DNA from: a virus
Reading direction: 5' to 3' (one strand)
Length of the DNA stretch: 64,000 nucleotides
Virus record (IMG/VR): IMGVR_UViG_3300030101_002520
Span: 51,140-115,139 of that record
Every line of letters begins with the position of its first letter. The first letter of the stretch is position 1. Positions 16,957 to 59,808 of this stretch are shown piece after piece. The notes beneath the pieces were generated by a model. It ran no database searches and was not told where the DNA came from. It worked only from the letters and a program-made list of their open reading frames with translations. Position numbers and translations under genes: made by a program.

Positions 16957-17241
16957 ATGGCAAAAGAATTATCAGAAGATTCAAAGTTTGAAATAAGTCT
17001 AAAGACACTTGGTGGTATAGGTTTTCTAATTACTACACTTGTAAGTATGTGGTTTGTATTACAAGCAGATATTGCTGAAGCTAAAGAACTTCCTGTACCC
17101 CCTCCGCCTGATGTTACTAGGATGGAGTTTCAGATGAAAGATGAAAACATAAGACTATCAATAAAGAACACAGAAGAGAATGTAAAGAAATTGGAGGATA
17201 GACTTATAAGGATAGAGGATAAAATAGATGACATGAAATGA
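16957..17241 (+). CDS. Membrane-anchored coiled-coil protein, possible inner spanin-like protein
   Basis: This 94-residue protein has one transmembrane helix at about residues 18-36 (GGIGFLITTLVSMWFVLQ). A proline-rich stretch (PVPPPPDV) and a charged C-terminal coiled coil (about residues 55-94) follow. Helix-plus-coiled-coil architecture is seen in inner spanins and in small phage membrane proteins of unknown role. It overlaps the start of the thioredoxin-like gene by four bases (ATGA). No lipoprotein partner lies next to it, so the spanin reading is tentative. Confidence 0.55.
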   Translation: MAKELSEDSKFEISLKTLGGIGFLITTLVSMWFVLQADIAEAKELPVPPPPDVTRMEFQMKDENIRLSIKNTEENVKKLEDRLIRIEDKIDDMK

Positions 17242-17603
17242 AATGGATAGTTTTAATATGCCTATTATTTTCTTATATATGTAGTGGGCAAGAAGTGCTG
17301 ACTGATAAAACATTTAGTGATAGTCAAGAAGGTGTAACAGTTGTAGAATTTTGGGCAGATTGGAATGCAAAAAATGAATGTGCATGGTTACAAGATTTAG
17401 AAGATGCAGAAGTATATAGAATAGATCTTAATACAAATGCTGCTAAAGAAAATAAAATAACAGTTTTACCTACTGTTATAGTTTTTGATGATGGAGAAGA
17501 GGTTGAAAGGTTTGAAGGAGATATTTCTTTTAGTCTTTGTCCAGAAAAAACACCTAAAAAGGTACAAAAAGAGATTAATGAATTAGTATTAAATAAATTT
17601 TAA
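17238..17603 (+). CDS. Exported thioredoxin-fold protein with missing active-site cysteines
   Basis: Residues 1-18 form a signal peptide ending CSGQ. The rest has a thioredoxin fold: VVEFWADWN at 35-43 and the cis-proline segment TVLPTVIVF with P78. The WCxxC site is replaced: W42 is followed by N43-A-K-N46-E-C48, so both catalytic cysteines are Asn and one cysteine lies two residues beyond. Disulfide exchange by the usual mechanism is therefore unlikely. A binding or scaffold role in the periplasm, or single-cysteine chemistry, remains possible. It is followed by a Cys-rich peptide and, one gene later, by the large T9SS substrate. Confidence 0.75.
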   Translation: MKWIVLICLLFSYICSGQEVLTDKTFSDSQEGVTVVEFWADWNAKNECAWLQDLEDAEVYRIDLNTNAAKENKITVLPTVIVFDDGEEVERFEGDISFSLCPEKTPKKVQKEINELVLNKF

Positions 17604-18113: not shown

Positions 18114-21095
18114 ATGAGACAACTAATATTCTTTTTATTAGTTCCTTTTCTCTTGTTTTCACAAGAGTCTTGGATAAATGTGCAGTTATTAACAGATGAT
18201 TATCCAGAAGAAACATCTTGGACTATAACTCCTCCAGGTGGATCACCAATTATTGCACAGTCTGATTCTATAATGCAAGATCAAACTTTGTATGATACAA
18301 TAGTTGATCTTGGAGGAACTATTATTTTTTCTTTATTTGATGAATATGGAGATGGATTAGGTGGCTTTAATGGTTCACCAGAAGGATGGCTTTTAGTACA
18401 AAATGATTGTCAAGATACTATATTATATGTAGCAGGTGATTTTGGTTTTGATTATATAGATACATTAACCATAGCTCCCTGTGCTCCCCCTCTTGCTGGA
18501 TGTCTAGATTCTTTAGCAATAAACTTTAATCCTCTTGCAACTGTAGATGATGGCTCATGTGAGTATCCAGGTTGTGATGGGATTCTTACATCTAATGCAT
18601 ATGATATATGTATAGGTGGAGGAACACAAACACAAATTATATTTGAATGGACATTAGATGATTACAATCCTAATTGTGAAGTAACTAATGTTATTGTATC
18701 AAATGAAGAAGGTTTAGGTCCTCTAAATCTTCCACCAGCTCCCGTAAATAACTTTGGCTTTATAGCAGGTAATGGACAAATGCCACCTAACTGGAGTGTA
18801 GAGCACTACTGTGTATTAGAATTTCTAGATGGTTCTATATCTGATACAATAGTTTATACACCATCTCCATGTATTGCTGGTTGCACAGATCCCACACAAA
18901 TAGCTTATAACCCATGGGCAACATTTGATGATGGTACTTGTACAGGAACATCTTGTGATACAACATCTCAGTATCAGATTACAATGGAGATTATGTTTGA
19001 CAACTGGCCAGGTGAAACAGGTTGGACAATGGTAACCAATTCTGGACAAGATATGCAAATGCCAAATGGGTCATATAACTTTCAAGATATAGGACAAACA
19101 TATACTTATACATTTTGTGTAGATCAAGTTGCACCATGGGAATTAATTGTTACAGATGATTATGGTGATGGTATGGCTGGATCTTCTTCAGGAGGTAATA
19201 TGGATGGTACAATTGTAGTTTATGATTGTGCTGGAGATACTTTATGGAATATGGATAATCCTGGTTTTGGTGATGTATTATACTCAGGAGCACAAAATGC
19301 AAACCCCTGTCCTACTGTACCAACAATACCCGGTTGTGTAGATGATGATTATGTTGAGTTTAACCCAGAAGCCAATGAAGATGATGGATCATGTGCTACA
19401 CTACATACTTATGGTTGTATTAATCCAAATGCTTTTAATTATGATCCTAGCGCAACTATAATGGATTTAGTTCCAGACTGCAACTATGAACTATGGATAG
19501 GTGATGCAGGTGGTGATGGTTGGGGTAATTCTTACTTGGGAATTATGCAGAATGGTCTCATAATAGGTACATATACAATGGGTCCAGGATCTTATGAACA
19601 AACATTTGGTCTTATACTAGATCCAGGTGTGCCAGTTGAAGTATATTACTTTGAGGTAGGAGGGCCACAGCAACCACCTCAAGAAGTAGAGTTTCAAACC
19701 TGGCACAATTCATTTAAGCTAACCAATGCTAATGGTGTTGAGCTAATGTATGAAGGTTATAATCCATTTGCAGATAATGGTCAAGGTGCTTTACAAAACT
19801 TTACATCTCCTTTCTGGACAAAGTATATAGAGATACCCTTTTGTGGGACATACTGTATACCTACAGTTGTTGGTTGTTTAGATCCAACAGCATATAATTA
19901 TAATGAAGAAGCTAACACTGATGACGGATCATGTGAACCTATAGTAGAGGGATGTACAAATGATTTAGCATTTAACTACAATCCAGAAGCTAATGTAGAT
20001 GATGATTCTTGTGTAGCTCTTGTAGTTGGATGTACTGATTCTTCTGCTTGGAACTACAATGCAGATGCAAATGAGGATGACGGTGCTTGTATATACCTAG
20101 GTTGCACTGACTCTTCAGCATGTAACTATAATCCAGGTGCAAATGCAGATAGTGGAGGATGCACTTATCCTGATCAATACTATAATTGCAGTGATGTATG
20201 CATAAATGATACTGACTCAGATGGAATTTGTGATGAGCTTGAAATACTAGGGTGTACTAGTGTAGCTGCTATTAACTATATGCCGGAAGCAACTGATGAT
20301 GACGGCAGTTGTGTTGGTATAGTATACGGTTGTACAGATCCCACTGCTTTTAATTATGACGCTACAGCTAATACAGACAATGGTTCATGTGTGCCTGTAA
20401 TATATGGATGTATAGATAGTACAGCATTCAACTATGATCCAACTGCTAACACAGATAATGGCACTTGTATAGAATTTGTATATGGTTGCATAGATGAAAC
20501 AGCTCTTAACTATGATCCACTAGCAAATACTTTAGATAACTCTTGTTGTTATCTTGGAGGTTGTACTGATGCTACTGCACTAAACTATGATGAAGATGCT
20601 TGTTTTGATGATGGTAGTTGTGTAGTTATAATAGAAGGATGTGCTGACCCTAATGCATACAACTATGATCCGCTAGTTAACTTACCAGACAATAGTGTTT
20701 GTTTATATGATGCTGGTTGCTATGGTGGACCTGGAGAACCTTATTGGTTAAATGATCCTTGTTATGCTTGGGTTATAGATATAGATGGCTATTGTTGTAC
20801 TGAACTATGGGATGAAACTTGTCAATCAATGTATAACTACTGTGAAGATGGTTGGCCTGTAGATCTAGATGAGTTATCAGGTAGTGATATAATTGTTTAT
20901 CCTAACCCTACAGCAAACACATTTACTATAGAAACAAGATTAAATGTAGATGTAGAACTTTATAACATAGTAGGAGAGCTTATACAAACAAATAATATTA
21001 AAAGAATAGATTTATCAGATTATCCAAATGGTATGTATAATTTGATTATTACATATGATAAAATAAGAATAACTAAGAAGATAATTAAACTATAA
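18114..21095 (+). CDS. Type IX secretion substrate: large surface protein with 14 Cys-pair repeats and C-terminal sorting domain
   Basis: This 993-residue protein has a signal peptide at 1-17 (LLVPFLLFSQ). Residues 925-993 are a canonical type A T9SS C-terminal domain: YPNP at 929-932, then ELYNIVGELI, DLSDYPNGMYNL and a final KKIIKL. Between them lie three related sandwich-like modules (DDYPEETSW...FDEYGDGLGG near the N-terminus, a second near residue 290 and a third near residue 455). There are fourteen copies of a repeat with the pattern GCxDxxAxNYxPxAxxDDGSC, the last ten in tandem from about 587 to 865. A DTDSDGICDE segment resembles a calcium-binding thrombospondin-type repeat. In Bacteroidetes such proteins cross the inner membrane by Sec, then the outer membrane by T9SS, and stay on the surface or are released. 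The gene overlaps the next by one base (TAATG). Why a phage carries it is unknown: host-surface change, adhesion between cells, or assembly onto the virion outside the cell. Confidence 0.88.
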   Translation: MRQLIFFLLVPFLLFSQESWINVQLLTDDYPEETSWTITPPGGSPIIAQSDSIMQDQTLYDTIVDLGGTIIFSLFDEYGDGLGGFNGSPEGWLLVQNDCQDTILYVAGDFGFDYIDTLTIAPCAPPLAGCLDSLAINFNPLATVDDGSCEYPGCDGILTSNAYDICIGGGTQTQIIFEWTLDDYNPNCEVTNVIVSNEEGLGPLNLPPAPVNNFGFIAGNGQMPPNWSVEHYCVLEFLDGSISDTIVYTPSPCIAGCTDPTQIAYNPWATFDDGTCTGTSCDTTSQYQITMEIMFDNWPGETGWTMVTNSGQDMQMPNGSYNFQDIGQTYTYTFCVDQVAPWELIVTDDYGDGMAGSSSGGNMDGTIVVYDCAGDTLWNMDNPGFGDVLYSGAQNANPCPTVPTIPGCVDDDYVEFNPEANEDDGSCATLHTYGCINPNAFNYDPSATIMDLVPDCNYELWIGDAGGDGWGNSYLGIMQNGLIIGTYTMGPGSYEQTFGLILDPGVPVEVYYFEVGGPQQPPQEVEFQTWHNSFKLTNANGVELMYEGYNPFADNGQGALQNFTSPFWTKYIEIPFCGTYCIPTVVGCLDPTAYNYNEEANTDDGSCEPIVEGCTNDLAFNYNPEANVDDDSCVALVVGCTDSSAWNYNADANEDDGACIYLGCTDSSACNYNPGANADSGGCTYPDQYYNCSDVCINDTDSDGICDELEILGCTSVAAINYMPEATDDDGSCVGIVYGCTDPTAFNYDATANTDNGSCVPVIYGCIDSTAFNYDPTANTDNGTCIEFVYGCIDETALNYDPLANTLDNSCCYLGGCTDATALNYDEDACFDDGSCVVIIEGCADPNAYNYDPLVNLPDNSVCLYDAGCYGGPGEPYWLNDPCYAWVIDIDGYCCTELWDETCQSMYNYCEDGWPVDLDELSGSDIIVYPNPTANTFTIETRLNVDVELYNIVGELIQTNNIKRIDLSDYPNGMYNLIITYDKIRITKKIIKL

Positions 21096-22153
21096 TGAGA
21101 ACAGTTCTTTACATATTACTACTTCTATCATTCACGATAAACGCACAAGAAGAAAATAAATTTAAAAAAGAACTTAAAAAAACTTTTAAATTCTCTACAT
21201 TCTATGCTGCAGTAAACGGTGGTACTTCTATTTCAGATCAGAATACATATTCTATATTAGATGGACTTCAAACCGATGTAATAGAAACTCCATTTGATTA
21301 CGCACTAACTTTAGGTGTAAGAAAGATACAAAGATTTGGATACGAGAACAAGGCTAACACATTCAAGGATGGCACAGAGTCTTCATACTCTGATGCCGCT
21401 ACTATTGGACGAACTAGAGGGTTTGAGTTTTTGTTTGAGGCAGATTACAAAAGACAACAAGGTGACTCTTATGTAGACCAACATCACTTCTTACGATACC
21501 TAGCAGACAAATGGGTTGTTAAGGTAGAGTATCTACAAGACGGTTTTGCTGATGTAGAGTATCTAGAAGCATCACAACGATATAGACAAAAGATAGGCAA
21601 AAGATTTTCACTTACTGCAGGGGCAGCACAAAGGATATCCGAACCATATGGTTATGATCCTCTAGCTGAATGGGTATTATCTAACGGAAACATACACTAC
21701 ACAAACCTTGCTTTAGAAGAAGGGTACACCATTGCATTTGACCCAACAGGAATAGAGTATCTATCTCCTAATGGATCTGTTGCAGCTACAAGTACAGAAG
21801 TCTGGGAAGAGGTTGTTATACCTCAAGTTATAGATGACTATGTTAAAGCAAGCAAAGATGCACTCCCTGTACAATGGTGTCACTCTCTTGTAGTAGGTCT
21901 TGATTATTACTACTACACTAAGAAGATCTGGTTACACTCATGGGCAAATGTGCTCCCTTATCACCTCAATACTGGGGGTGAATACTCATATCATAATTTC
22001 AATGGTGGTAATTGGATAGATTATTCTGGCGGATTAATCTTTGGATATAAGATTAACAGGAACCTTGGAATCTTTATTGAAGGTAAATACAATAAGTATT
22101 GGAATAGAGATTGGCATGACTTCAAGTTTGGAATAAATTATATCATTCTTTAA
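21095..22153 (+). CDS. Outer-membrane beta-barrel-like protein
   Basis: This 352-residue protein has a signal peptide at about 1-18 (LLLLSFTINAQ), many alternating aromatic strands (FEFLFEADYKR, WVVKVEYLQDG, SLVVGLDYYYYT, IFIEGKYNKYW) and the terminal strand FKFGINYIIL, all typical of Bacteroidetes outer-membrane barrels. I recall close relatives in other marine phages, without a known function. The start ATG overlaps the stop of the T9SS substrate, so the two are probably made together. A PorP/SprF-like helper role for the substrate is an attractive guess, but I see no PorP motif. Confidence 0.7.
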   Translation: MRTVLYILLLLSFTINAQEENKFKKELKKTFKFSTFYAAVNGGTSISDQNTYSILDGLQTDVIETPFDYALTLGVRKIQRFGYENKANTFKDGTESSYSDAATIGRTRGFEFLFEADYKRQQGDSYVDQHHFLRYLADKWVVKVEYLQDGFADVEYLEASQRYRQKIGKRFSLTAGAAQRISEPYGYDPLAEWVLSNGNIHYTNLALEEGYTIAFDPTGIEYLSPNGSVAATSTEVWEEVVIPQVIDDYVKASKDALPVQWCHSLVVGLDYYYYTKKIWLHSWANVLPYHLNTGGEYSYHNFNGGNWIDYSGGLIFGYKINRNLGIFIEGKYNKYWNRDWHDFKFGINYIIL

Positions 22154-22163
22154 TTTCTAGGTA

Positions 22164-22185
22164 TTTTTTTGTATATTATTATATA
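22164..22185 (+). promoter_or_regulatory. Phage-type promoter motif
   Basis: Seven T residues followed by GTATATTATTATATA lie 18 bases before the ATG at 22203. The match to the motif at 14133-14152 extends over 18 of 20 positions. It probably starts the transcript for the block of small Lys/Gly-rich proteins. Confidence 0.55.
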
Positions 22186-22202
22186 ACCAAAACCGTATTT
22201 AT

Positions 22203-22352
22203 ATGAACTGGATAAACAGTTGGCGTGAGGGAAACAAGAAGAATATTGTTGATCTTACATTTAGATTTGGGGTATTAACCCTGTTTGAATTAAATTGGAA
22301 CCCGAAGAAAAGCTTCAGGTTAATAGTATTAAACTTTGGATTTGAAATATAA
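22203..22352 (+). CDS. Hypothetical 49-residue protein
   Basis: The frame runs from the first ATG after the promoter motif (MNWINSWREGNKKN...) and ends LIVLNFGFEI. The alternating hydrophobic pattern near the end suggests two beta strands. The stop overlaps the ATG of the next tiny gene. I do not recognise it. Confidence 0.5.
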   Translation: MNWINSWREGNKKNIVDLTFRFGVLTLFELNWNPKKSFRLIVLNFGFEI

Positions 22353-22423
22353 TGTGTGTGTGCCCAATATGTGTTATAGTAGCAGCTGTTGCTATAGTAA
22401 GTTATAAGCTAATTAAAACATAA
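22352..22423 (+). CDS. 23-residue membrane peptide
   Basis: This frame (MCVCPICVIVAAVAIVSYKL...) is coupled to the preceding stop. It has three cysteines in its first seven residues, then one hydrophobic helix and a basic end. A small membrane peptide of unknown role, supported by its position between tightly packed genes. Confidence 0.4.
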   Translation: MCVCPICVIVAAVAIVSYKLIKT

Positions 22424-22427
22424 TATT

Positions 22428-22658
22428 ATGATGAAAGGATTAAAAAATGTTATGGTCACTGATCAAAGAACTCAGATGACTTTTTGTGCAAGCTGTAAAA
22501 GCTGTCCTGCAATTGATATTTCCAAAGACTCAGACAAAGTTATTGTTGGAGGTGATGACGAAGGTTACACTGAGTTCACCAAAGATCAATTTGCTTTGTT
22601 TGTGAAAACAGTTAAGGAAGGTATGTATGATAAGTACCTTCCTGAAACTAAAGATTAA
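22428..22658 (+). CDS. Hypothetical protein with CxxCxxC motif
   Basis: This 76-residue protein contains FCASCKSCP at about residues 19-27, a possible metal site or iron-sulfur ligand set. An acidic, well-conserved-looking segment (VIVGGDDEGYTEFTKDQF) and a short helix follow. I recall similar proteins in other marine phages but no function. It lies two bases before the next gene. Confidence 0.55.
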   Translation: MMKGLKNVMVTDQRTQMTFCASCKSCPAIDISKDSDKVIVGGDDEGYTEFTKDQFALFVKTVKEGMYDKYLPETKD

Positions 22659-22660
22659 AG

Positions 22661-22921
22661 ATGGCAAAAAAGTGGATACAGGATGCAATAAAGAAACCGG
22701 GATCTTTAACAGCAGCAGCTAAAAGAGAGGGTAAAAGTATTACAGAATATTGTAAGACACCACCTTCCACTAAAGCAAAACAAAGGTGTAATTTAGCTAA
22801 TACCTTAAGAAAAATAGCTAAGAAAAGAAAAAAGAAAGCTTGTGGCGGATCAGTTATGTTTTGTGGTGGAGAATATCATTCACCAGTTAAACAAGCTGTA
22901 GGCCCAAATAAAATTTTATAA
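22661..22921 (+). CDS. Small basic protein with C-terminal GPNxxL tag
   Basis: This 86-residue protein opens with KKWIQDAIKKPGSLTAAAKR, a start shared with many short proteins of marine phages that I recall, and carries a helical basic middle (TLRKIAKKRKKK). The Gly/Cys-rich end contains CGG twice and finishes AVGPNKIL. The same ending (GPN-x-(I/V)-L) closes three other proteins in this window. The basic charge suggests nucleic-acid binding or packaging with the DNA; the tag is of unknown meaning. Confidence 0.6.
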   Translation: MAKKWIQDAIKKPGSLTAAAKREGKSITEYCKTPPSTKAKQRCNLANTLRKIAKKRKKKACGGSVMFCGGEYHSPVKQAVGPNKIL

Positions 22922-22923
22922 CT

Positions 22924-23298
22924 ATGGCAGCAAAAGGCCCACTAAGAAATATGTTACTTAGGCTTTTAGGTAAAAGTAAAAATGTTACTACAAACGTTCC
23001 TACAGGCCCTATTAAAGGAAGTCTTGATGAAAGTTTTCAAAAATTTGTTATAAAAAATAACATGTTAAATCAAAAAGGATTTTTTGGACCAGGTGGTTAT
23101 AGAGGAGGTGTAGATAATTTTCAAAAAAGAATAGATCAATTAAAACTTAATACAAAACCTAAAATGACTTTGGAGGAGTATCAAAGGAGTATTGATAACT
23201 TAAGATTACCAGATAATCCACCAAATTCAGGTAAACAATTGGATTTATTTAAAGATAAAAAAAAGGGTGGAAGCGTAGGACCAAATGGAGTGTTATGA
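22924..23298 (+). CDS. Small basic protein with GPNxxL tag and QLDLF motif
   Basis: This 124-residue protein has a polar N-terminal part, a predicted helical centre (YQRSIDNLRLPDN), then QLDLF and the terminal KKGGSVGPNGVL. QLDLF matches the bacterial sliding-clamp-binding consensus QL(S/D)LF, which may be chance. Its last four bases overlap the next start. The function is unknown; the shared tag links it to its neighbours. Confidence 0.55.
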   Translation: MAAKGPLRNMLLRLLGKSKNVTTNVPTGPIKGSLDESFQKFVIKNNMLNQKGFFGPGGYRGGVDNFQKRIDQLKLNTKPKMTLEEYQRSIDNLRLPDNPPNSGKQLDLFKDKKKGGSVGPNGVL

Positions 23299-23546
23299 AA
23301 CTATTTAATAAGTTAAGGAAAAGAAGAATAAGTAATAAGATTAATAAACTTAATCAGGAGACTGAAAATCTTCAAGGTAAAGGTTATGGTGTATTTCAAC
23401 CTGCATGGAATGAAGGTGGTAAACAAATTGTAAAGAATACAAAGAAAGTAATGGATTTACAAGATAAATTAAAAAAGTTAAGTAAAAAACATTGCGGTGG
23501 AGGTATGATGTGTGGAGGTGCTGTAGGACCAAATGGTATATTATGA
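23295..23546 (+). CDS. Small Lys-rich protein with CGGG/GPNxxL C-terminus
   Basis: This 83-residue protein is a long basic helix (residues about 1-65, KKVMDLQDKLKKLSKKH) followed by a Cys/Gly-rich end, CGGGMMCGGAVGPNGIL. The start overlaps the previous gene (ATGA) and the end overlaps the next ATG. The helix-plus-tag layout is shared with the two upstream proteins, but the helices differ. Confidence 0.55.
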   Translation: MKLFNKLRKRRISNKINKLNQETENLQGKGYGVFQPAWNEGGKQIVKNTKKVMDLQDKLKKLSKKHCGGGMMCGGAVGPNGIL

Positions 23547-24043
23547 AAAAATTAATTACATTTTTATTACTAGCACTAACTGCACTAGTTTATGGGCAAG
23601 ATAAAAATGTAAGACCAATAGATGTAGTAGAGAATATAAGTGTATACTTTGTAGACACAGCTTATTATAAGTCTTTGACACTTGACTCACTACATATACA
23701 AAATGTAACTGAGTTTGTTTATGTATCAAACGCAGTAGCTGACACACTAGTTGTGCCTGTTATAGAATTTGTTGAGAGAGTTACAGTTGATACGCTACAC
23801 ATACACGTACCTGAATGCAGAGTAGAATATGTAGAAGTGTATGTAACCGAAGAATTATTGATGCAGGATACTATTGTAGAGATAGAATTTAAAAATGCAC
23901 TTATAAGTTCTAACTCAGGAGTTCAAGAGATTTTAGATAAATCTTTTGGTAATAATATACTATATGATCTTCAAGGTAATCAAATAAGAAGACCAATGGG
24001 AGTTTATATAGAGAATGGTAAAATAAAGTATATAAAAATTTAA
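23543..24043 (+). CDS. Exported protein with T9SS-tail-like C-terminus
   Basis: The chosen ATG at 23543 gives a signal peptide (MKKLITFLLLALTALVYGQ) and overlaps the preceding stop; a longer frame from 23492 would hide it. The 166-residue product has strand-rich repeats (VTVDTLHIHVPE, VEYVEVYVTE). It ends LYDLQGNQIRRPMGVYIENG followed by KIKYIKI. That closing pattern (YDLQGxxV...GxYIxNGKK) is the one seen in short Bacteroidetes T9SS/Por secretion tails. It is probably exported and perhaps surface-delivered like the 993-residue protein. The tail call is by eye and less certain than for that protein. Confidence 0.6.
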   Translation: MKKLITFLLLALTALVYGQDKNVRPIDVVENISVYFVDTAYYKSLTLDSLHIQNVTEFVYVSNAVADTLVVPVIEFVERVTVDTLHIHVPECRVEYVEVYVTEELLMQDTIVEIEFKNALISSNSGVQEILDKSFGNNILYDLQGNQIRRPMGVYIENGKIKYIKI

Positions 24044-24054
24044 AATTTAAAGTT

Positions 24055-24777
24055 ATGCCCGCAAATATGAAAAAATCTGGAATGTCATACAAGAAAGGAG
24101 GTTCCAAAAAAATGTACGGAGGTACAATGAAAAAAAAGAAAATGTATGGAGGAACCATGAAAAAGAAAATGTATGGTGGCTCCAAAAAGAAAATGATGAA
24201 GAAAGGTGGAATGATGAAAGCTAATAAAGGTTTAGAGAAATTAGCTGAAGCAAATCCTGAGCTTACGTATACAAAAAAAATGTATGGTGGTATGGCTAAT
24301 CCAAACAAAGATGAAATGATGATGTATGGTGGTGCTATGTATAAAAAGATGATGAAGATGGCAGGTGGTCCAATGATGAATGAAGAAGGAATGAAAGTAC
24401 CAGGTATGATGAAAGCTGGTGGTGGATTAAGAAAAATGCCAGGTGGTGGTTACATGAGAGATATGGATCTACCTAAAGCACAGTCTGGACTTTTTACAAA
24501 AGGTCTTAAAGGAATAGCAAAAAAATTGGGAAAAGGTAAAATAACAAATCCAAGCACAATAGATAATGTGAATGTGAAGAAAACTCTTTTTCAAGGTGTA
24601 AATAAGAAAGGTGAACAGGTTTTTAAATTAGGAACAGATGGTAATGTATTTACAAAAAAAGATAATGCAATGGCTCCTTTTTTACAGAATAAGGCAAAGA
24701 TCTTAGAAATATTAAGGGGAAACAATCCTACAAAAAATAAAGTTTATAAAAAAGGAACTTTATATGGTCCTAAATAA
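24055..24777 (+). CDS. Lys/Met/Gly-rich low-complexity protein with MYGG repeats
   Basis: This 240-residue protein has an N-terminal half built of five MYGG units separated by Lys/Met runs (KKKMYGGTM). The middle contains MMKAGGG and DLPKAQSG, and the C-terminal half is a more ordinary globular-looking domain (FKLGTDGNVFTKKDN). LPKAQ followed by G also occurs near the start of the protein at 25182. Strong positive charge suggests DNA or membrane contact. I do not know a function. Confidence 0.55.
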   Translation: MPANMKKSGMSYKKGGSKKMYGGTMKKKKMYGGTMKKKMYGGSKKKMMKKGGMMKANKGLEKLAEANPELTYTKKMYGGMANPNKDEMMMYGGAMYKKMMKMAGGPMMNEEGMKVPGMMKAGGGLRKMPGGGYMRDMDLPKAQSGLFTKGLKGIAKKLGKGKITNPSTIDNVNVKKTLFQGVNKKGEQVFKLGTDGNVFTKKDNAMAPFLQNKAKILEILRGNNPTKNKVYKKGTLYGPK

Positions 24778-24789
24778 AAAAAATAAACT

Positions 24790-25185
24790 ATGAGTATACT
24801 AAAAAAGATTTTTTCAGGTGCCGGAAGCAACCTGGTAGAATCAGTTGGCGGTGTGATTGATAATTTAGTAACAACAGATGAGGAAAAATTAGAAGCCAAA
24901 AGAAAACTAAAAGAACTCATTATGAGTCATGAGGCTCAGATGGAGAAGAACATAACTGACCGTTGGACAGCAGATATGAACTCTGACTCCTGGCTGAGTA
25001 AAAATGTAAGACCCATGGTTCTTATATTTTTAATTGTATGTACTATGCTATTGATCTTTATTGATGCTGGTGCACTTACGTTTACAGTAGAAGAGAAGTG
25101 GACAGATCTTTTACAATTAGTTTTAATTACAGTAATAGGTGCATATTTTGGTGGCCGTTCTGTAGAAAAATTTAAAAAGAAATGA
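24790..25185 (+). CDS. Holin, GTA/3TM-type
   Basis: This 131-residue protein starts with an amphipathic region. It then has the segment WTADMNSDSWLSKNVRPMV and two or three membrane spans (about 77-95 and 105-122), ending GAYFGGRSVEKFKKK. This pattern matches the phage 3TM holin family known from gene transfer agents. Holins permeabilise the inner membrane at the end of infection and release the endolysin; here the probable endolysin is at 59140. The stop overlaps the next ATG (ATGA). Confidence 0.75.
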   Translation: MSILKKIFSGAGSNLVESVGGVIDNLVTTDEEKLEAKRKLKELIMSHEAQMEKNITDRWTADMNSDSWLSKNVRPMVLIFLIVCTMLLIFIDAGALTFTVEEKWTDLLQLVLITVIGAYFGGRSVEKFKKK

Positions 25186-25799
25186 GAAAAATAAAAAAAG
25201 AATTACCTAAAGCACAGAGAGGTTATCTTGGGAGACAAGTTGCAAAAATTCTTGGTTTTAGTGATGAAGCTTTAGAAGCAGCTAGAAAAAAACAAGCACA
25301 AATAAATAAGAGGAAGCCTACTAATAAGAATACTAATAAAAGTAAAATTAATACAAATAAAAAGAAGAAGAGTAATAAACAATCTTTTCTTGATAAGCAA
25401 TTTGAGTTTAAAAGTCCTAGTTTACGTCAACTAAATCCACTTAGGATAATTAACCCAGGAATACCAAATACTGCTAGGTTTATTAAAAAAAATCCTCTTG
25501 GTACTGGTGCACTTGGCCTTTCTTTAGCGGCATATTTAAGATCAAGACAACCTGGTATTGATCCAGTACAACCTATAGAAAATTTTAATATTCCAAGTAA
25601 CTTTAGTAATGATTTTAATATAAGCAGAAATACTGAAGCTCCAAATGTAAATTTAGATAGTATTTTGCGTAGTCAAGACTTGTTAAATTTTGATAAGAAA
25701 GGTGGACGTGTTAAAGCTAGAGGTGGTAAAACAGCTCCGGGTATGAGAAAACAAGGTGGTGGTCTTAAGATAGACCGTAATGGTAAATACTACAGGTAA
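25182..25799 (+). CDS. Basic protein with LPKAQ motif and Gly-rich tail
   Basis: This 205-residue protein has ELPKAQRGYLG near the start and a Lys/Asn-rich run at about 40-70. A hydrophobic stretch (GTGALGLSLAAYL, about 107-119) is perhaps a membrane helix. The C-terminal part reads KKGGRVKARGGK and KQGGGL. It shares LPKAQ with the protein at 24055 and GG-basic motifs with several neighbours. Possibly a packaged or membrane-linked virion protein. Confidence 0.52.
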   Translation: MRKIKKELPKAQRGYLGRQVAKILGFSDEALEAARKKQAQINKRKPTNKNTNKSKINTNKKKKSNKQSFLDKQFEFKSPSLRQLNPLRIINPGIPNTARFIKKNPLGTGALGLSLAAYLRSRQPGIDPVQPIENFNIPSNFSNDFNISRNTEAPNVNLDSILRSQDLLNFDKKGGRVKARGGKTAPGMRKQGGGLKIDRNGKYYR

Positions 25800-25924
25800 T
25801 GGCAGCTAGAAACACGTTTACATTTAGAAGCAATGGTGGTAAGAAAAGAAGAGGTGTCCACAGTAAAAATGCTAGCAAATCTCAAAATGCCTATAAGAAA
25901 CCCTATAGAGGGCAAGGAAGATAA
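25799..25924 (+). CDS. 41-residue basic protein with GVHSKN/YRGQGR motifs
   Basis: Its ATG overlaps the previous stop (TAATG). The product contains RRGVHSKNASKSQNAYKK and ends PYRGQGR. I recall the GVHSKN...YRGQGR pattern from tiny proteins in many crAss-like and other Bacteroidetes phages, which supports a real conserved gene. The function is unknown. It is the last gene of this plus-strand block. Confidence 0.6.
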   Translation: MAARNTFTFRSNGGKKRRGVHSKNASKSQNAYKKPYRGQGR

Positions 25925-25925
25925 A

Positions 25926-25952
25926 AAAGAGGAGACTATTGATCTCCTCTTT
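25926..25952. terminator. Bidirectional terminator between convergent blocks
   Basis: A perfect 10-bp stem (AAAGAGGAGA / TCTCCTCTTT) has a 7-base loop. It has A-runs on one side and T-runs on the other, so it can act in both directions. It lies two bases after the last plus-strand gene and overlaps the last codons of the convergent minus-strand gene. Confidence 0.75.
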
Positions 25953-26256
25953 CTTTTATAAGCCCCTCAAGAATTATAAGATAGTTTATGGCATCTCCTA
26001 TTTTTTCTTCTAACAGTTCATCTGTTGGGACCTCTCCGGGACATTTGCTTATAATGGTTTTAATACATTCAAAATGTTTGCAAGCATATTCCCAAGCTAC
26101 ACCTTCTGGTGTATCATGAAAAGAAAAACCTACACCATTTTTAAATGATTGGAATACATCTAGGTCAGTAGCATATTCGTTCATCTTAATAGCATAAGTT
26201 TCTCTAGTTTTAGTGAACCTCTGTTCTAGAAGTTCCATGAATTTGTCATAAGTCAT
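25936..26256 (-). CDS. MazG/Nmad1-like all-helical protein
   Basis: This 106-residue all-helical protein contains KMNEYATDLDVFQSF and ends with EEKIGDAINYLIILEGLIKE. The pattern of an N-terminal NEYxxDxxVF segment and a closing E-K-(I/L)-x-D-x-x-N-Y-(L/I)-x-L helix resembles phage MazG-like and nucleotide-modification-associated (Nmad1/DUF1599) proteins. Those act on, or are tied to, nucleotide pools. The start overlaps the stop of the upstream 38-residue gene. The specific activity is unknown. Confidence 0.5.
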   Translation of the reverse strand: MTYDKFMELLEQRFTKTRETYAIKMNEYATDLDVFQSFKNGVGFSFHDTPEGVAWEYACKHFECIKTIISKCPGEVPTDELLEEKIGDAINYLIILEGLIKERGDQ

Positions 26257-26369
26257 ACTTCTTTTTCAAGCTTTCTTAAGACTTCAGGATCAACAATTGG
26301 CATGCCATCCTCATTCACATTATTAGGAACAGTTGGTTCCTCCATAGAAATCATTTTTTCTAAATCCAT
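26253..26369 (-). CDS. 38-residue hypothetical protein
   Basis: This frame (MDLEKMISMEEP...) ends KLEKEV and overlaps the next start as ATGA. It is acidic and has no recognised motif. Support comes from coupling and from filling the gap between two same-strand genes. Confidence 0.45.
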   Translation of the reverse strand: MDLEKMISMEEPTVPNNVNEDGMPIVDPEVLRKLEKEV

Positions 26370-26386
26370 AAATAAATAATTAAAAA

Positions 26387-26560
26387 TTAAAGTTCTTCAC
26401 CAAAACATTTTTTCATTAATCTTGTTAATCTTAACTCAATGCTGGTGATTAATTCAGTTAAAGTGGTTAAAGCTAATGCTGTAACCCAGAATATTATAAT
26501 GATAATTAGTAGCATAGAACCGCTAATCATCTTAATGCAATTTAATAAAAATTTTCCCAT
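26387..26560 (-). CDS. 57-residue single-span membrane protein
   Basis: Starts MGKFLLNCIKMISG, then has a long hydrophobic helix (SMLLIIIIIFWVTALAL) and a charged C-terminal helix. It begins one base after the stop of the radical-SAM gene. It could be a small membrane regulator or a lysis-related peptide; no family recognised. Confidence 0.5.
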   Translation of the reverse strand: MGKFLLNCIKMISGSMLLIIIIIFWVTALALTTLTELITSIELRLTRLMKKCFGEEL

Positions 26561-26561
26561 T

Positions 26562-27440
26562 TTAAAATATATATCTAATTTTATTCCAAGGTATTACGTT
26601 ATCATGTTCTTTTATAAATGCATCAATAAATTGTTCTTTTAATTTATGTTTATATCTAACGTTTCTACCTCCATACTGTGATGTTTTACTCTCCTGCAGA
26701 CTAGGTGTCCACAAATCTATTTCTTGTTTTTCTTTATGATCTATTAAGTTTTTATAATGTTTATTCTTGTTATGTGTTAAAAATATACACTCAGCATAAA
26801 CACCTTCTTCATATCTTACATTGTTATTTATTAAAGCAAATAACTCTTCATAGTCATCTAACCAGCCTTCATAAACTAATATGGGACTAAAGTTAATATG
26901 AACATCATATCCTGCTTCTTTAAACTTATCTATTGCTTGTACTCTTTCTAATATTGTTGATGTATTGGGTTCATGTAATGCACGTTTCTTTTCAGGCATC
27001 ATACTAAACCGTATTCTAATCTTCTTGTTTGGATTGTATTTAAGTAATTCTTTGTTAACATATTTAGTTGCAAAGCTTCCCATTATATCTTCATTATACT
27101 TGAAAAAATCAAATATAAATTGCCAATCATGGTATTTACAATGAAGAGCAAAGTCTTCATTACAACTAATATCATATGTAATATATTTTGGATGTGTTTG
27201 ATTTGGTTTTTTTGTTTCTAGTTTTGCAAATATAGAATGGTTGTTTATCTCTGTAAGTATTTGGTTTGCATTTGTTGCTATTGATAATCCTTCAGGCTTG
27301 TGCCTTTTCATATAACAATATGAACAATCATATAAACATCCCCAACCAAAGCTTGGAGATATAAAGTCTGTAGATCTACCCGAAGGTCTAATCTTCAGAC
27401 TTTTTCTAATATCTCTAGTGACTAATGTCATATCTTCCAC
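26562..27440 (-). CDS. Radical SAM protein, spore-photoproduct-lyase-like
   Basis: This 292-residue protein has SPSFGWGCLYDCSYCYM at about 28-44, giving C35-x3-C39-x2-C42 for a 4Fe-4S cluster. The first half also has a conserved-looking YDISCNEDFALH segment. The context and spacing are those of the spore photoproduct lyase (SplB) family, which repairs thymine dimers or acts on related substrates by radical chemistry. In a phage, a role in DNA repair or base modification is plausible. The start ATG lies inside the end of the DUF932-like gene. Confidence 0.72.
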   Translation of the reverse strand: MEDMTLVTRDIRKSLKIRPSGRSTDFISPSFGWGCLYDCSYCYMKRHKPEGLSIATNANQILTEINNHSIFAKLETKKPNQTHPKYITYDISCNEDFALHCKYHDWQFIFDFFKYNEDIMGSFATKYVNKELLKYNPNKKIRIRFSMMPEKKRALHEPNTSTILERVQAIDKFKEAGYDVHINFSPILVYEGWLDDYEELFALINNNVRYEEGVYAECIFLTHNKNKHYKNLIDHKEKQEIDLWTPSLQESKTSQYGGRNVRYKHKLKEQFIDAFIKEHDNVIPWNKIRYIF

Positions 27441-28264
27441 TCTTCAAATGTGTCATAATCTTGCGCTTCAAGATCTGCAAATAACCCATCAGTAGTGTCA
27501 ATTGTAGGTGTAACCCAAGTTGTATCTTTCTGATGTAATCCTGCTTGACTTAATAACTCTGCAGTCATAAACTCATGAAATCTAACTTGATCACTCATCC
27601 AGGTACGTGGATGTGACTTCTTAAAAGAATGTGTAACATGATTGTAAAATGTCCATGCATTATTAAGATCAGCTGAATAATGATATGATGGATCTTTCAT
27701 CTCTGCTTTTATAACAGAAACTTGTGATGCATCAATAATCTCTTCATCTAAGAATAATCTTCCAACTAGTTCTGCCTGACTCTTTTTAGGTAGAAATATT
27801 TGTCTCATCTTATTCTTATCATCAATTAACTTATCAAAGTATTTGTTGGCTGACTTAATTTGTGAACTTATTTGAGTATGAATGTCATGATCTGCTTTAC
27901 CTGTATGTTTTCTAGCATAGTTTGCCATGTCTCCACATAACATACCATTGCTACATACATTTACGAAAGCTCCTACAGCACACTGAAACCGTGTACTTTT
28001 ATCATAAGAGTTAGTCCAGGCAAACATCATGCCCATTTCTTCATCTTTGGTAGAGGCAAGGTGATATACACCCTGCGCTACCTTTGCATTCATATTAGCT
28101 CTATATAGCTCTTTTGTGATTCTAAATCCATTATTGTCTAATAGAGTTTTAGTTGTCTCTATGACATCTTTATGAGGAATAACTGTGTAAGTTTTTCCAT
28201 GATTAGGTAGTGGAGCTGCCACTAAAAAATCTTTTGTAGTATTTATTGGTCTTGTGTATCCCAT
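27428..28264 (-). CDS. DUF932-like phage protein
   Basis: This 278-residue protein contains YTVIPHKDVIETTKTLL near the start and FAWTNSYDKSTRFQCAVGAF with VNVCSNGMLCGD in the centre. This matches the layout I know from DUF932 (phage/plasmid-like) proteins. Their function is not established; they often accompany replication or mobile-element genes. It follows a host-type promoter and a GC-rich hairpin and so starts its own transcript together with the radical-SAM gene. Confidence 0.7.
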   Translation of the reverse strand: MGYTRPINTTKDFLVAAPLPNHGKTYTVIPHKDVIETTKTLLDNNGFRITKELYRANMNAKVAQGVYHLASTKDEEMGMMFAWTNSYDKSTRFQCAVGAFVNVCSNGMLCGDMANYARKHTGKADHDIHTQISSQIKSANKYFDKLIDDKNKMRQIFLPKKSQAELVGRLFLDEEIIDASQVSVIKAEMKDPSYHYSADLNNAWTFYNHVTHSFKKSHPRTWMSDQVRFHEFMTAELLSQAGLHQKDTTWVTPTIDTTDGLFADLEAQDYDTFEEWKI

Positions 28265-28288
28265 AATTTGTTGATTTTAATGCCAGAG

Positions 28289-28321
28289 GGGAGCCGTGCA
28301 CGAACGAAATCCTTGGCTCCC
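28289..28321 (-). other. GC-rich hairpin in 5' leader
   Basis: GGGAGCC and GGCTCCC form a 7-bp stem with a 19-base loop, between the promoter at 28347 and the ATG at 28264. No T-run follows on the minus strand, so it is more likely a leader structure than a terminator. The string GGGAGCCGT recurs in the terminator at 31190-31223. Confidence 0.45.
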
Positions 28322-28346
28322 TTGGACTTTATGAATTATAACATTA

Positions 28347-28376
28347 CAAATATAATAATAAAACTTATTGAAACAA
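28347..28376 (-). promoter_or_regulatory. Bacteroidetes-type promoter
   Basis: On the minus strand TTG (28374-28376) and TATATTTG (28347-28354) are separated by 19 bases, fitting the Bacteroidetes consensus. It overlaps the end of the polymerase gene and lies about 80 bases before the DUF932-like ATG. Confidence 0.6.
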
Positions 28377-30269
28377 TAACAATTGGTTATTTTTTACACC
28401 AATTATGTTATTTATTTCTTTCTCAATTGCATTTAGATAATATTTCTCATTAATGTCATAGTCTGACCATTTTTTATTTTCTATCTTATTCATTACAGTT
28501 TGGACCCATTGCCCAGACTCTAACTGTATTTCTCTCTTATCATTCTTATTTATCTTGACTATCTTACAACCTTTATTTGAAATATAATATCTATTAATTT
28601 TTTGCAATTCATCTTGTTTAGCAACACCTTTATCTACATATATAGCATGTTGCCTCCATGCACCTTTAGATTTTGCTCCTATACAATAATCAAGAATATT
28701 TCTATTATGTTTTATTGTATATTCTGGTAAAGTTCCATCAACAAAGTAGGCATACAATGCTTTTGGAATGATCAGTTTAGACTTGTTCTTATGAAGTGCT
28801 AACCCCTCAAACTCAAATCTACCTTTACATTTAGCTTTACCATTAGTATCCACTGCTATATAGTTGTTAACATCAGCTAACACTAGTTTACTATATTGAT
28901 CATGTTCAAGATTAAGACCGGTTATCTGTTCCCACTCTTTACAAACTTCCATATAAGTATCTATATACTCACGTGGTATGATAGTTTCTACACCATCAGT
29001 ATTTTGCATGAGTGCTACAGCATCTGGTATTCTTGTCATAATCATTTCATACAACATCATTAATGTTAATTGACCATTAACAGTAATAAACATAGTAAAC
29101 TGAGGATCATATAGAAAAGAGTTCTTATCATTACTTAACCCATAGGTTGAGTTTAAGATAATTTTATATACATAGTTCATTGGATCACTCTTTGGTATCT
29201 TCTTTCTTTCATCAAAGAACCATTGATATAATTCACAAAACTTTTCTTTAGGTATATGAGCTGGTGCATACTTATTAACAATAGCTAAGTTAGGATAGAA
29301 GCTAGTAACATCCGAAGACATTATAACTCTCTGAGCATCAGACTCATATACTCCAGGTTTAGTAGCACCATGAGCACCGCCTAATCCAAAGTCAGTCTTT
29401 ACACCTTTATATATAACAGAAGATTTGAATCCTCCTTTAGTATAATTAGGATTTATTTCTACAGTTTTAAACCTTTCTAATAAATTTTTAAACTCAGGTG
29501 TTTCAAACTTAACATAGTCTAATATAAGATCCTTAACTTTAATTACATTTCTAAATGTTCTTAACTTCTTAACTTCATGTCTTGGCATGTCTAGTTCTTT
29601 ACTAAGATAGTAAGCAAAGATTTCTTTACTTATCCTTGGTTCAGATGCACTAAATAGATTAATATCATATCTTTCAGTTAAGTTCTTTCTTAATGCAATT
29701 AAAGGTTTACATCTATTAAAAACTTCTTTAGTAGCTTCTACATCATTGATACAGTATTCAATAACTAAATCTAACTGATTCTGTGTATTTATCTCTGTAT
29801 TATGATGTATAGGCATGTCTAATATATTATCCCAGTCCATGGTATATTCTATCCATTTAAGACTAGATCTCTTAGCCATATTATCCCAATGATTTAGCTT
29901 AAACACATCTATCTGTTTAATGCACATATGCCATTCAGGAAATTCTTGAAACTCATGGTTATGTGCTTTCTCTATACATTGTTGCGCATAACTATATATC
30001 TCACCGGCAATGTCTTCTCCCTCCATTAAGTCCCATTCTTTGTAATGTTTTATAATATAGTGAGTGATCTGTGCATCAAATGCTAATCCGTTATAGGATA
30101 TATGCCACTCTTTATTTTCCGTATTTTCTTTAAGAAACTCTAGGAACTTACTAAAGTCATTACGCTGTTTGCATATTGCAAAGACTTTAGTTTCTTCAGT
30201 CTTGTAGTGTTTAAATACACCAACAAAACAGTTCACTAGGGTTTCATAATCCATTACCCAGTGATTCAT
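28365..30269 (-). CDS. Family B DNA polymerase with exonuclease domain
   Basis: This 634-residue replicative polymerase has exonuclease motifs D7-x-E9, SYNGLAFD (N60, D65) and YCIND (Y172, D176). Polymerase motif A is SSDVTSFYPNLAI (D320), motif B is KIILNSTYG (K369, N373), and motif C is QNTDG (D425). Motif C lacks the first Asp of the usual DTDS. The protein ends QLLLFQ, which fits the bacterial clamp-binding consensus QLxLF, so it may recruit the host sliding clamp. Crassvirales carry either a family A or a family B polymerase; this one is B. It is in the same minus-strand unit as uracil-DNA glycosylase. Confidence 0.9.
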   Translation of the reverse strand: MNHWVMDYETLVNCFVGVFKHYKTEETKVFAICKQRNDFSKFLEFLKENTENKEWHISYNGLAFDAQITHYIIKHYKEWDLMEGEDIAGEIYSYAQQCIEKAHNHEFQEFPEWHMCIKQIDVFKLNHWDNMAKRSSLKWIEYTMDWDNILDMPIHHNTEINTQNQLDLVIEYCINDVEATKEVFNRCKPLIALRKNLTERYDINLFSASEPRISKEIFAYYLSKELDMPRHEVKKLRTFRNVIKVKDLILDYVKFETPEFKNLLERFKTVEINPNYTKGGFKSSVIYKGVKTDFGLGGAHGATKPGVYESDAQRVIMSSDVTSFYPNLAIVNKYAPAHIPKEKFCELYQWFFDERKKIPKSDPMNYVYKIILNSTYGLSNDKNSFLYDPQFTMFITVNGQLTLMMLYEMIMTRIPDAVALMQNTDGVETIIPREYIDTYMEVCKEWEQITGLNLEHDQYSKLVLADVNNYIAVDTNGKAKCKGRFEFEGLALHKNKSKLIIPKALYAYFVDGTLPEYTIKHNRNILDYCIGAKSKGAWRQHAIYVDKGVAKQDELQKINRYYISNKGCKIVKINKNDKREIQLESGQWVQTVMNKIENKKWSDYDINEKYYLNAIEKEINNIIGVKNNQLLLFQ

Positions 30270-30271
30270 AT

Positions 30272-30460
30272 TTAATAGTTTTCATAAATACAAACATTAT
30301 CATTACATAATGAACTGTTTGTAAAATATAGTTGATTTACATTGTGACCATTATAGTTAGGATCAAAGTTTATTGCATCCCAATCACAACAAACTTGATC
30401 CTCTAACTCTCTTTCACAACTTGTAAATATTAATAATAAAAGTATTATATATTTATACAT
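30272..30460 (-). CDS. Small lipoprotein with a Cys-pair repeat like the 993-residue surface protein
   Basis: The ATG at 30460 (not the one at 30469, which overlaps the previous gene) gives MYKYIILLLLIFTSC, a lipoprotein signal peptide with the acylated cysteine at residue 15. The mature part has AINFDPNYNG...CNDNVCIY, a single copy of the A-x-N-(Y/F)-D-P...DN-x-C pattern that is repeated 14 times in the protein at 18114. It would sit in a membrane facing the periplasm or surface. A role with that surface protein, for example as a partner or decoy, is speculation. Confidence 0.65.
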   Translation of the reverse strand: MYKYIILLLLIFTSCERELEDQVCCDWDAINFDPNYNGHNVNQLYFTNSSLCNDNVCIYENY

Positions 30461-30462
30461 AG

Positions 30463-45802: not shown

Positions 45803-45923
45803 TACTTATTCTTTTTTTTATCCAATAATCTATTTGTGTACAAAAGTACATACCTGCACAGAAGGATGCTGCCATTCCTAAGACGGCAGCAACTCCTATA
45901 ACATAAATTTCTATTATCTCCAT
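45762..45923 (-). CDS. 53-residue membrane protein
   Basis: Begins MEIIEIYVIGVAAVLGMAAS and continues with FCAGMYFCTQIDYW, a membrane helix with two cysteines, then a basic tail. The start lies within the last codons of the His-rich secreted protein. No family recognised. Confidence 0.45.
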   Translation of the reverse strand: MEIIEIYVIGVAAVLGMAASFCAGMYFCTQIDYWIKKRISNGKNEKHLHSNEK

Positions 45924-54700: not shown

Positions 54701-54913
54701 ATGAATATATTTAAAGATAATAATGATTGGAATGAAAAAGCTATAATAGGTTTTGTAGCATTTGTCATTATGTGTATAATAATGGTTGCTGATCTAGTAA
54801 CAGGCTGGGTAGGTAAAGACTTAGTAATTAATGAGTTTGTTTATGATTCATTTGTTTGGGTGGTTCTCGGCTGCTTTGGTATCAGTGGCGTTGAGAAATT
54901 TGCCAAAAAATGA
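54701..54913 (+). CDS. Two-span membrane protein, holin-like
   Basis: This 70-residue protein has two membrane helices (IIGFVAFVIMCIIMVADLV and FVWVVLGCFGISGV) and a basic end (EKFAKK). Size and layout fit a small holin or antiholin; the 3TM holin at 24790 ends with a similar SVEKFKKK. Stop and next start overlap (ATGA), linking it to the tail fibre. Confidence 0.55.
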   Translation: MNIFKDNNDWNEKAIIGFVAFVIMCIIMVADLVTGWVGKDLVINEFVYDSFVWVVLGCFGISGVEKFAKK

Positions 54914-58850: not shown

Positions 58851-59147
58851 ATGGCAAAAAATGAAAATATAGTTGAGCAAGATGAAAAAGATCTTGTTGA
58901 AAAAAGAGAGGAAATAACAAAATATTATGAAGAAAATATTCCTCATTTAAAAACTCAGCTTGAATATGAATCTATATTAAGAGATATTGAAAAAACTAGA
59001 GCTGAAAGATTACAAGCACAAATGTTTATGGCTAAGAGTCAAGCTGCTCCACCTGTACCACAAGCACCTCAAACTGGACAGACTCCAGAAAAAGCTGCTT
59101 CAACACCAGCTAAAAGAACCTTAAAAAAAGCAGAAACTAATGACTAA
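58851..59147 (+). CDS. Coiled-coil protein with Pro/Ala-rich tail
   Basis: This 98-residue protein has a charged helix (residues about 8-65, DEKDLVEKREEITKYYEENI) and a flexible tail with APPVPQAPQTGQTPEK. It overlaps the endolysin-like gene by eight bases. Possibly a scaffold-like or structural helper; no family recognised. Confidence 0.5.
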   Translation: MAKNENIVEQDEKDLVEKREEITKYYEENIPHLKTQLEYESILRDIEKTRAERLQAQMFMAKSQAAPPVPQAPQTGQTPEKAASTPAKRTLKKAETND

Positions 59148-59808
59148 ACCAATTAATATAACAAGGGAACAAATAGAGCAGACTATAAAGCAAATGACTG
59201 ATTACTTATGGTTTGAGAAAGGAAACTATAATCTTAATATTGTAGGTATCAGAAATTCTAGTACTGGCGCTAATGTTACTAATAGGTTTGATGATAAAAT
59301 TACATTATCATATAAAACTGGTGAGGTTAAAGATGACAATGGAAATATAATTACTCCTGGAGTATGGAAATTTCATTGTTATGACTGTACTACAGATCCT
59401 GGAACTCATTGGGTAGAAAACATAATGAGAAAAGCTGGAGTTGCAATTCTTAAACCTGGTCAATATAGAGGTAGTCACATTATAAGAAAACATCAAGGTA
59501 GATATGATGCATTAGGTCAAGATAGACCTGTAAAGGTTTATAGAGATAACAATAGAGATGGTCAATATAATCTTTATGAAGAATCTGTGCAAGAAGGTTT
59601 ATTTGGTATTAATATACATAGAGCTACTAAGTATGCAGGTAAAAAATCTACACAAGTAGATAAGTGGTCTGCTGGTTGTCAAGTAATAGCAGCCAATGAT
59701 GATTGGAAAGAGTTTATGAGTATTTGCAGAAAGTCAAAAAAAATATGGGGTAATAGATTTACCTATACTTTATTAGAGAGTGATAAAATATTAACTACAT
59801 GGCTTTAG
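59140..59808 (+). CDS. Probable endolysin, cell-wall peptidase type
   Basis: This 222-residue protein has FHCYDCTTDPGTHWV in the middle. GINIHRATKYAGKKSTQVDK then precedes WSAGCQVIAAND, giving H160 and S177-A-G-C180. A His before an S-x-G-C motif is the pattern of L,D-transpeptidase (YkuD)-like enzymes, and I recall the same block in lysis genes of other Bacteroidetes phages. It has no signal peptide, so it would need the holins at 24790 or 54701 to cross the inner membrane. Confidence 0.6.
   Translation: MTKPINITREQIEQTIKQMTDYLWFEKGNYNLNIVGIRNSSTGANVTNRFDDKITLSYKTGEVKDDNGNIITPGVWKFHCYDCTTDPGTHWVENIMRKAGVAILKPGQYRGSHIIRKHQGRYDALGQDRPVKVYRDNNRDGQYNLYEESVQEGLFGINIHRATKYAGKKSTQVDKWSAGCQVIAANDDWKEFMSICRKSKKIWGNRFTYTLLESDKILTTWL

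Follow-up and report, generated by a model that had tools for sequence, protein, structure and literature searches.

What would a phage gain from a protein addressed to the secretion system of its host? The 64,000-nt stretch of DNA analysed here (the window) makes up the final 64 kb of the 115,139-bp viral record IMGVR_UViG_3300030101_002520. At 18114-21095 it carries an open reading frame that begins with ATG on the plus strand, opposite a stop-rich strand, and encodes a 993-aa protein that we refer to as the cargo, laid out as follows:

18114..21095, +: T9SS (type IX secretion system) type A cargo, 993 aa; above the cut-offs of TIGR04183 and PF18962, with homologues in 27 viral loci
18114..18161, +: signal peptide, residues 1-16; Q17 near-invariant in 30 homologues, predicted cleavage before Gln17
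18174..19832, +: N-terminal half, residues 21-573, with about four beta-sandwich modules (AlphaFold2 strands) and four interspersed Cys repeats (129, 256, 407 and 434)
19872..20702, +: main Cys-repeat array, residues 587-863, from the pattern count against shuffles and the spacing of the DNA copies
20709..20849, +: conserved Cys module adjoining the repeats, residues 866-912 (NDPCYAWVIDIDGYCC...WDETC), from the family alignment
20889..21092, +: C-terminal T9SS sorting domain (CTD), residues 926-993, from TIGR04183, PF18962, AlphaFold2 and dN/dS

A sequence-only reading of this gene had proposed a signal peptide, a full C-terminal sorting domain (YPNP at residues 929-932 and a C-terminus of KKIIKL) and export through the host T9SS. 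The motif and the terminus are present as described. A search with TIGR04183, suggested at that time, gave a match over residues 928-992 (41.2 bits, E 1.2e-10; curated cut-off 23), and PF18962 also matched above its cut-off (42.9 bits against 27), which bears out the domain; the outcome named beforehand as a refutation, absence of a TIGR04183 match, did not arise. It is the sole T9SS sorting domain in the 115,139-bp record, and in the AlphaFold2 model residues 926-992 form a beta domain of their own. The signal peptide was judged from hydropathy and alignment. The N-terminus is hydrophobic and consists of MRQLIFFLLVPFLLFS followed by Q, and at least 90% of 30 aligned cargo homologues retain this Gln17, in agreement with the Bacteroidetes Q-rule, which predicts a Gln after the signal peptidase I cleavage site (PMC5837995). 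Hydropathy and the near-invariant Gln17 thus uphold the proposed signal peptide as well.

Both signals are retained across the phage family, and the CTD was found at every complete C-terminus among the cargo homologues of the 27-locus scan. NG86 dN/dS values of 0.05-0.16 against four close relatives, a rough estimate from a short region, point to purifying selection on the CTD; the same ratio is uninformative for the signal peptide, which has 15 codons and is saturated. Some divergent homologues bear a shorter C-terminal tail, LFYIYDDGTVEKK, in place of the CTD. This tail has no Pfam match (searched in L067), and TIGR04183 matched none of the records that bear it. Matches to the tail are encoded in 30 of 79 genomes of the host order, and in the loci fetched from such genomes the motif lies 17-18 residues from a C-terminus. 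The phages seem to follow the two tail types of their hosts, and we infer that the short tail is itself a T9SS signal.

The body of the cargo is less readily interpreted. A regular expression found 13 Cys-pair repeats, against at most two in any of 2,000 shuffles of the protein, and a further copy, GCTDPTQIAYNPWATFDDGTC at residues 256-276, was recognised by eye; the total is therefore 14, the number given by the sequence-only reading. The sandwich modules that it had named are likewise seen: strands predicted by AlphaFold2 form about four of them, in addition to the C-terminal beta domain. With a pLDDT of 72 and a pTM of 0.35, the modules of this model are usable and their overall arrangement is not. 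A fold search with the whole model returned only generic Ig/FnIII-type matches with TM of at most 0.10 by query length, and for that reason nothing is claimed from it. Across most of the main array the DNA copies are spaced by 72-78 nt, and repeat number varies from 8 to 24 among cargo homologues. The composition (53 Cys, net charge -139) makes a sticky or calcium-bound protein plausible. The densest stretch of invariant residues in the family alignment is the Cys module at 866-912, and a profile of this module was used to locate the cargo in other loci. In the position of the cargo, the divergent locus L162 (8372-8899) encodes a 175-aa protein, possibly a minimal cargo, with a signal peptide, one sandwich-like stretch, a short tail and no Cys repeats, which suggests that the repeats are not the essential part. 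Repeats of the same type are frequent in Flavobacteriales proteins (61 of 196 genomes).

Similar repeats also occur elsewhere in this phage. In the tail muzzle protein (PF25731; L003:4498-13437, record 21498-30437), an M12 reprolysin-type metallopeptidase domain (PF13688, E 7.3e-9) precedes about four similar Cys repeats, so that a virion protein and an exported protein have a module in common. On the minus strand at 30272-30469, a 65-aa lipoprotein-like gene with an FTSC lipobox contains one Cys-repeat-like stretch (CCDWDAINFDPN).

The phage, a marine one, is assigned to Crassvirales by its crAss capsid (PF23898, E 3.6e-30) and muzzle (PF25731, E 4.1e-17) proteins. It is far from cultured phages; its portal protein is nearest to those of crAss-like phages and of Leptolyngbya phage Lbo-JY46, at no more than 34% identity, and none of 50,697 phage records contains a match to the cargo. 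In tblastn searches of those records neither the cargo nor the outer-membrane barrel encoded next to it (below) gave a credible match, and a PHROGs search matched neither protein. A query with the CTD found weak matches in unannotated metagenomic records, and in Pfam and NCBIfam the CTD was the sole match of the cargo.

The cargo gene does not stand by itself. It adjoins three genes on the same strand:

21095..22153, +: outer-membrane beta-barrel (the barrel), 352 aa; 12 long strands, PDB neighbours, Q-rule signal peptide
16957..17241, +: TMCC, 94 aa, a single TM segment and a coiled-coil-like tail, judged from sequence; 24 homologues
17238..17603, +: Trx, an exported thioredoxin-fold protein with NxxN for CxxC; PF00085, 25.6 bits (cut-off 23.5)

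The start of the barrel gene overlaps the stop codon of the cargo (TAATG), and the barrel is more strongly conserved than the cargo. Its model has 12 long strands at medium confidence (pLDDT 74); the best PDB neighbours, NanC, Bam/BamA, FapF and porins, have low TM-scores, and the nearest viral model is A0A516LKJ4 (TM 0.71). A Q-rule signal peptide is present in 62 of 62 barrels. Membership of PorP/SprF was considered and rejected, as hhalign against TIGR03519 members gave a probability of 4.4% where control halves of that family gave 100%. SprF and PorG are linked to the GldK track through a conserved Cys (PMC12635249), and among the invariant or near-invariant columns of the 62 barrels there is no Cys. 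The mean column identity of TMCC is 72% over 24 homologues, and inspection of its alignment by eye suggests an inner-membrane TM segment with a periplasmic coiled coil. At the active-site position of Trx, WNxxN or FNxxN stands in 84 of 84 homologues and the cis-Pro is retained. An active thioredoxin was ruled out, and Trx is not a redox enzyme, since NxxN replaces CxxC throughout. A search of phage records with Trx found only short, weak thioredoxin matches.

To define how constant this arrangement is, we counted distinct contigs with at least 7 kb of flank on each side, using the barrel as seed. Cargo, barrel, TMCC and Trx lie on one strand in 41 of 41 such contigs, with a median span of 4.9 kb. 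Because this count is conditional on the barrel, it was redone with Trx as seed: among 41 full-flank loci, 34 contain the whole set and 39 have barrel, TMCC and Trx. When both sets were pooled and reduced to distinct Trx genes, all four were present in 64 of 71 loci; as the loci are mutually related, these counts are not independent trials. Three gene orders were found, cargo-barrel-TMCC-Trx (34 loci), barrel-TMCC-Trx-cargo (20) and TMCC-Trx-cargo-barrel (10). All are rotations of one circle, barrel-TMCC-Trx-cargo, with which the seven incomplete loci are also compatible. Three siphoviral loci keep the core of barrel, TMCC and Trx and have no recognisable cargo.

The carriers of this cassette differ in their virions. 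Among the 34 cassette records examined, 15, the window included, encode the crAss capsid and three further records a contractile tail sheath. In two of the latter (L019 and L030) the sheath is accompanied by major head proteins of the T4 kind, and from these sheath and head families we take them to be T4-like. L152 encodes a tape-measure protein and is for that reason a long-tailed phage, a siphovirus by its genes. The cassette thus occurs in crAss-like podoviruses and T4-like myoviruses, and as its three-gene core in siphoviruses. T4-like phages have barrels that share 58-63% identity with that of the window and fall in one clade with crAss-like barrels, despite the different capsid and tail families of their carriers; siphoviral barrels are far more distant, and the tree holds too few typed genomes for transfers to be dated. 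The cargo is thus a near-constant member of a four-gene envelope set common to unrelated phages. A separate observation concerns L007 and L008, which are one contig of 245,646 bp. The cargo region occurs in it twice, in versions that differ and lie about 119 kb from each other, and the contig may therefore represent two phage genomes joined in assembly.

In the genome collection, barrel matches were confined to four MAG contigs, which resemble binned phage. Both Bacteroidota MAGs that hold a cassette contig encode the SprA translocon, and the presumed hosts thus possess a T9SS. A third barrel-bearing contig was assigned to an archaeal MAG, and the cassette contigs may be misbinned. The CTD, the Q-rule peptide, the dN/dS values and SprA together give strong support, at the level of sequence, to the earlier proposal that the cargo is exported through the host T9SS; a route by Sec and then by that system is well supported.

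The sequence-only reading had also placed the cargo in the late region, which fits its surroundings: a virion structural gene lies upstream and a holin gene downstream. The lysis genes of the window are:

24790..25185, +: holin, 2.6 kb downstream of the cassette; phrog_3427, E 1.4e-32
59140..59808, +: candidate endolysin, 37 kb from the cassette; match to a profile of the L013 and L024 genes (endolysin phrog_33083)

A holin or endolysin lies within 5 kb of the cassette in 51 of 71 loci and within 1 kb in 34; in the other 20, a search of about 8 kb of flank with six lysis families recognised no lysis gene within 5 kb. The endolysin gene starts 10-31 bp past Trx in L019, L030, L111, L176 and L203, and the siphoviruses L152, L153 and L155 have the order barrel-TMCC-Trx-holin-endolysin. 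Small fibre-like genes crowd the region in crAss-like members, and a fibre-like family occurs in 33 of 41 barrel-seeded contigs. A small TM protein (FKDNNDxNEK...), which resembles TssN (PF17555) weakly and with a score below the cut-off, is encoded directly upstream of the cassette in the T4-like phages (L019:9231-9500 and L030:9745-9999) and 32 kb off in the window (54701-54913).

These observations provide the basis for a three-step model, to which as a whole (T9SS export, envelope set and end-of-infection role) we give a probability of about 0.5. The cargo would leave the cytoplasm by Sec and be cut before Gln17, and the host T9SS would carry it across the outer membrane by means of the CTD, to the surface or the medium. 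Cargo and partners would then make up one envelope-spanning set, with TMCC in the inner membrane, the redox-dead Trx exported and the barrel in the outer membrane, in presumed contact with one another. At the end of infection this set would act with holin and endolysin, opening or disconnecting the outer envelope or freeing virions; the cassette would fill the place that spanins hold in other Gram-negative phages, with the acidic, Cys-rich cargo on the outer face. Joint action is suggested because the four genes are co-inherited across unrelated phages, and a spanin-like role because TMCC, Trx and barrel, taken together, would reach from the inner membrane through the periplasm to the outer membrane, like spanin systems. 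Shared gene sets that neighbour holin and endolysin and hold their order in phages with different virions are, classically, lysis modules. It is this order and position that point to the end of infection, and co-inheritance and proximity to holin and endolysin therefore indicate that stage first. Gene position, on which the assignment depends, makes a lysis-stage role the most likely one for the cassette. A more specific version, which we advance tentatively and would put below even odds, is that an undescribed spanin-replacing module of inner-membrane coiled coil, redox-dead Trx, barrel and T9SS cargo attacks the outer membrane from both faces, found in phages of marine Bacteroidota, among them crAss-like and T4-like ones, and, as its core, in siphoviruses.

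Several observations weigh against the lysis role. Clustering is usual for late genes in any case, and the cassette often has fibre-like genes as neighbours too; the candidate endolysin of the window is 37 kb away, and 20 of 71 loci have no lysis gene nearby. A lysis set has no obvious need of a surface protein of about 1,000 aa, and three siphoviral loci do without a recognisable cargo. The barrel model (pLDDT 74, low PDB TM-scores) and the possibly misbinned MAG contigs also count against the model. With regard to the earlier interpretation, export by the host T9SS stands, and the roles suggested (blocking superinfection, linking cells or joining virions), which presuppose a stand-alone adhesin, received no specific support; that the gene is one of four co-inherited envelope genes had been overlooked.

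In the main rival explanation the cargo would remodel the surface, coating the infected cell and, with the barrel, masking or blocking receptors against superinfection or re-adsorption to debris. T5 Llp blocks its receptor in this way, keeping progeny off debris. The CTD would direct the cargo outside, its repeat number varies from 8 to 24 in the manner of adhesins, and the barrel is an outer-membrane protein. However, exclusion genes are usually accessory and variable, whereas the cassette is almost constant across three virion types, and a coat leaves the inner-membrane and periplasmic members and the nearby lysis genes unaccounted for. We consider this possible but rather doubtful, even though superinfection exclusion is proposed by the Cryophage authors for the cargoes of that phage (PMC7468147). 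A different division of labour, in which TMCC, Trx and barrel serve as chaperones and shuttle for one Cys-rich adhesin to be displayed on the surface, as SprF does for SprB, is in keeping with the overlap of the barrel gene and the cargo stop, an arrangement comparable to substrate/shuttle pairs (PMC12618676), and a Trx fold free of redox Cys could bind a protein with 53 Cys. It is unlikely, because siphoviruses retain the core without a recognisable cargo and because profile comparison sets the barrel apart from PorP/SprF (4% probability, against 100% for the control); in addition, type A cargoes use PorV (PMC12618676).

Two further explanations place the cargo in the particle or in the host. 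Fibre-like and virion genes are nearby and the muzzle of the same phage has similar repeats, as would be expected if the cargo were a decoration protein or a fibre. Assembly of virion proteins takes place in the cytoplasm, however, whereas the cargo has a conserved signal peptide and CTD, and its family occurs alongside unrelated virions; a place in the particle is accordingly very improbable. The commonness of such repeats in Flavobacteriales (61 of 196 genomes) might instead suggest a host gene acquired by chance, or host DNA misassembled into a viral contig. This is ruled out by synteny and hardly credible, as dozens of viral contigs have this gene in the same company and host matches, the cassette-bearing MAG contig excepted, are partial and mostly to the repeats.

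Phage T9SS cargoes as such are not new, since two cases were reported earlier. In Cryophage, three T9SS-tagged proteins (an endoglucanase, a GH39 protein and a PA14 protein) vary between phage variants; they have type A sorting domains like that of the window cargo and are presumed to use the host system, and the sections consulted do not describe a conserved partner cassette (PMC7468147). Likewise, the crAss-BACON cluster 2 protein carries a T9SS sorting domain, and such proteins are encoded near head genes in crAss-related contigs, like the window cargo; they differ in having BACON domains instead of Cys repeats, and the sections consulted describe no partner genes (PMC6949934). In the literature that we found, phage T9SS cargoes are isolated, variable genes, whereas the window cargo belongs almost invariably to a four-gene set. 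The gene context, a four-gene envelope cassette, is the new part. In the open-access literature we found no description of the set, which is weak as evidence of absence.

Other known systems share single features with the cassette. Type B T9SS substrates pair with PorP/SprF barrels (PMC9143113, PMC12618676), and in SprB/SprF-type pairs, as in the cassette, the substrate gene adjoins that of an outer-membrane protein of similar size; those substrates, however, have type B CTDs, whereas the window cargo is type A and its barrel lacks PorP/SprF profile similarity. The cassette Trx has the fold and cis-proline common to thioredoxins (PF00085) but is exported, with NxxN for CxxC. In resemblance to spanins (Rz/Rz1 or unimolecular), a small protein with an apparent N-terminal TM segment and a coiled-coil-like tail may be combined with an outer-membrane partner, in many loci beside holin and endolysin. 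Unlike spanins, the cassette has a 352-aa beta-barrel and no short lipoprotein, with a periplasmic Trx and a T9SS surface protein in addition, and no cassette member scanned matched a spanin family. To our knowledge, the breach of the outer membrane by Bacteroidota phages is poorly known, and the cassette is a concrete candidate for it. Sharing by unrelated phages normally marks a function needed by every phage of a host. If the cargo were a surface coat instead, a widespread, secretion-dependent reshaping of marine cells during infection would follow, and on either reading the T9SS would be drawn into the life cycle of the phage. Named spanins of Bacteroidota phages are few; examples are given in PMC8776804.

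Three other genes of the window were recorded in passing. Positions 28-5943 are the end of a giant frame; it starts before the window, runs from position 42143 of the record onwards and, judged from its coordinates, has a length of about 4,980 aa. On the minus strand, 26562-27440 encodes a spore photoproduct lyase-like radical SAM protein (PF20903, E 5.8e-26) that is kept in relatives. Outside the cassette and also on the minus strand, 45914-46399 encodes an exported protein of 161 aa, which has a Q-rule signal peptide and whose start is rich in His and Lys.
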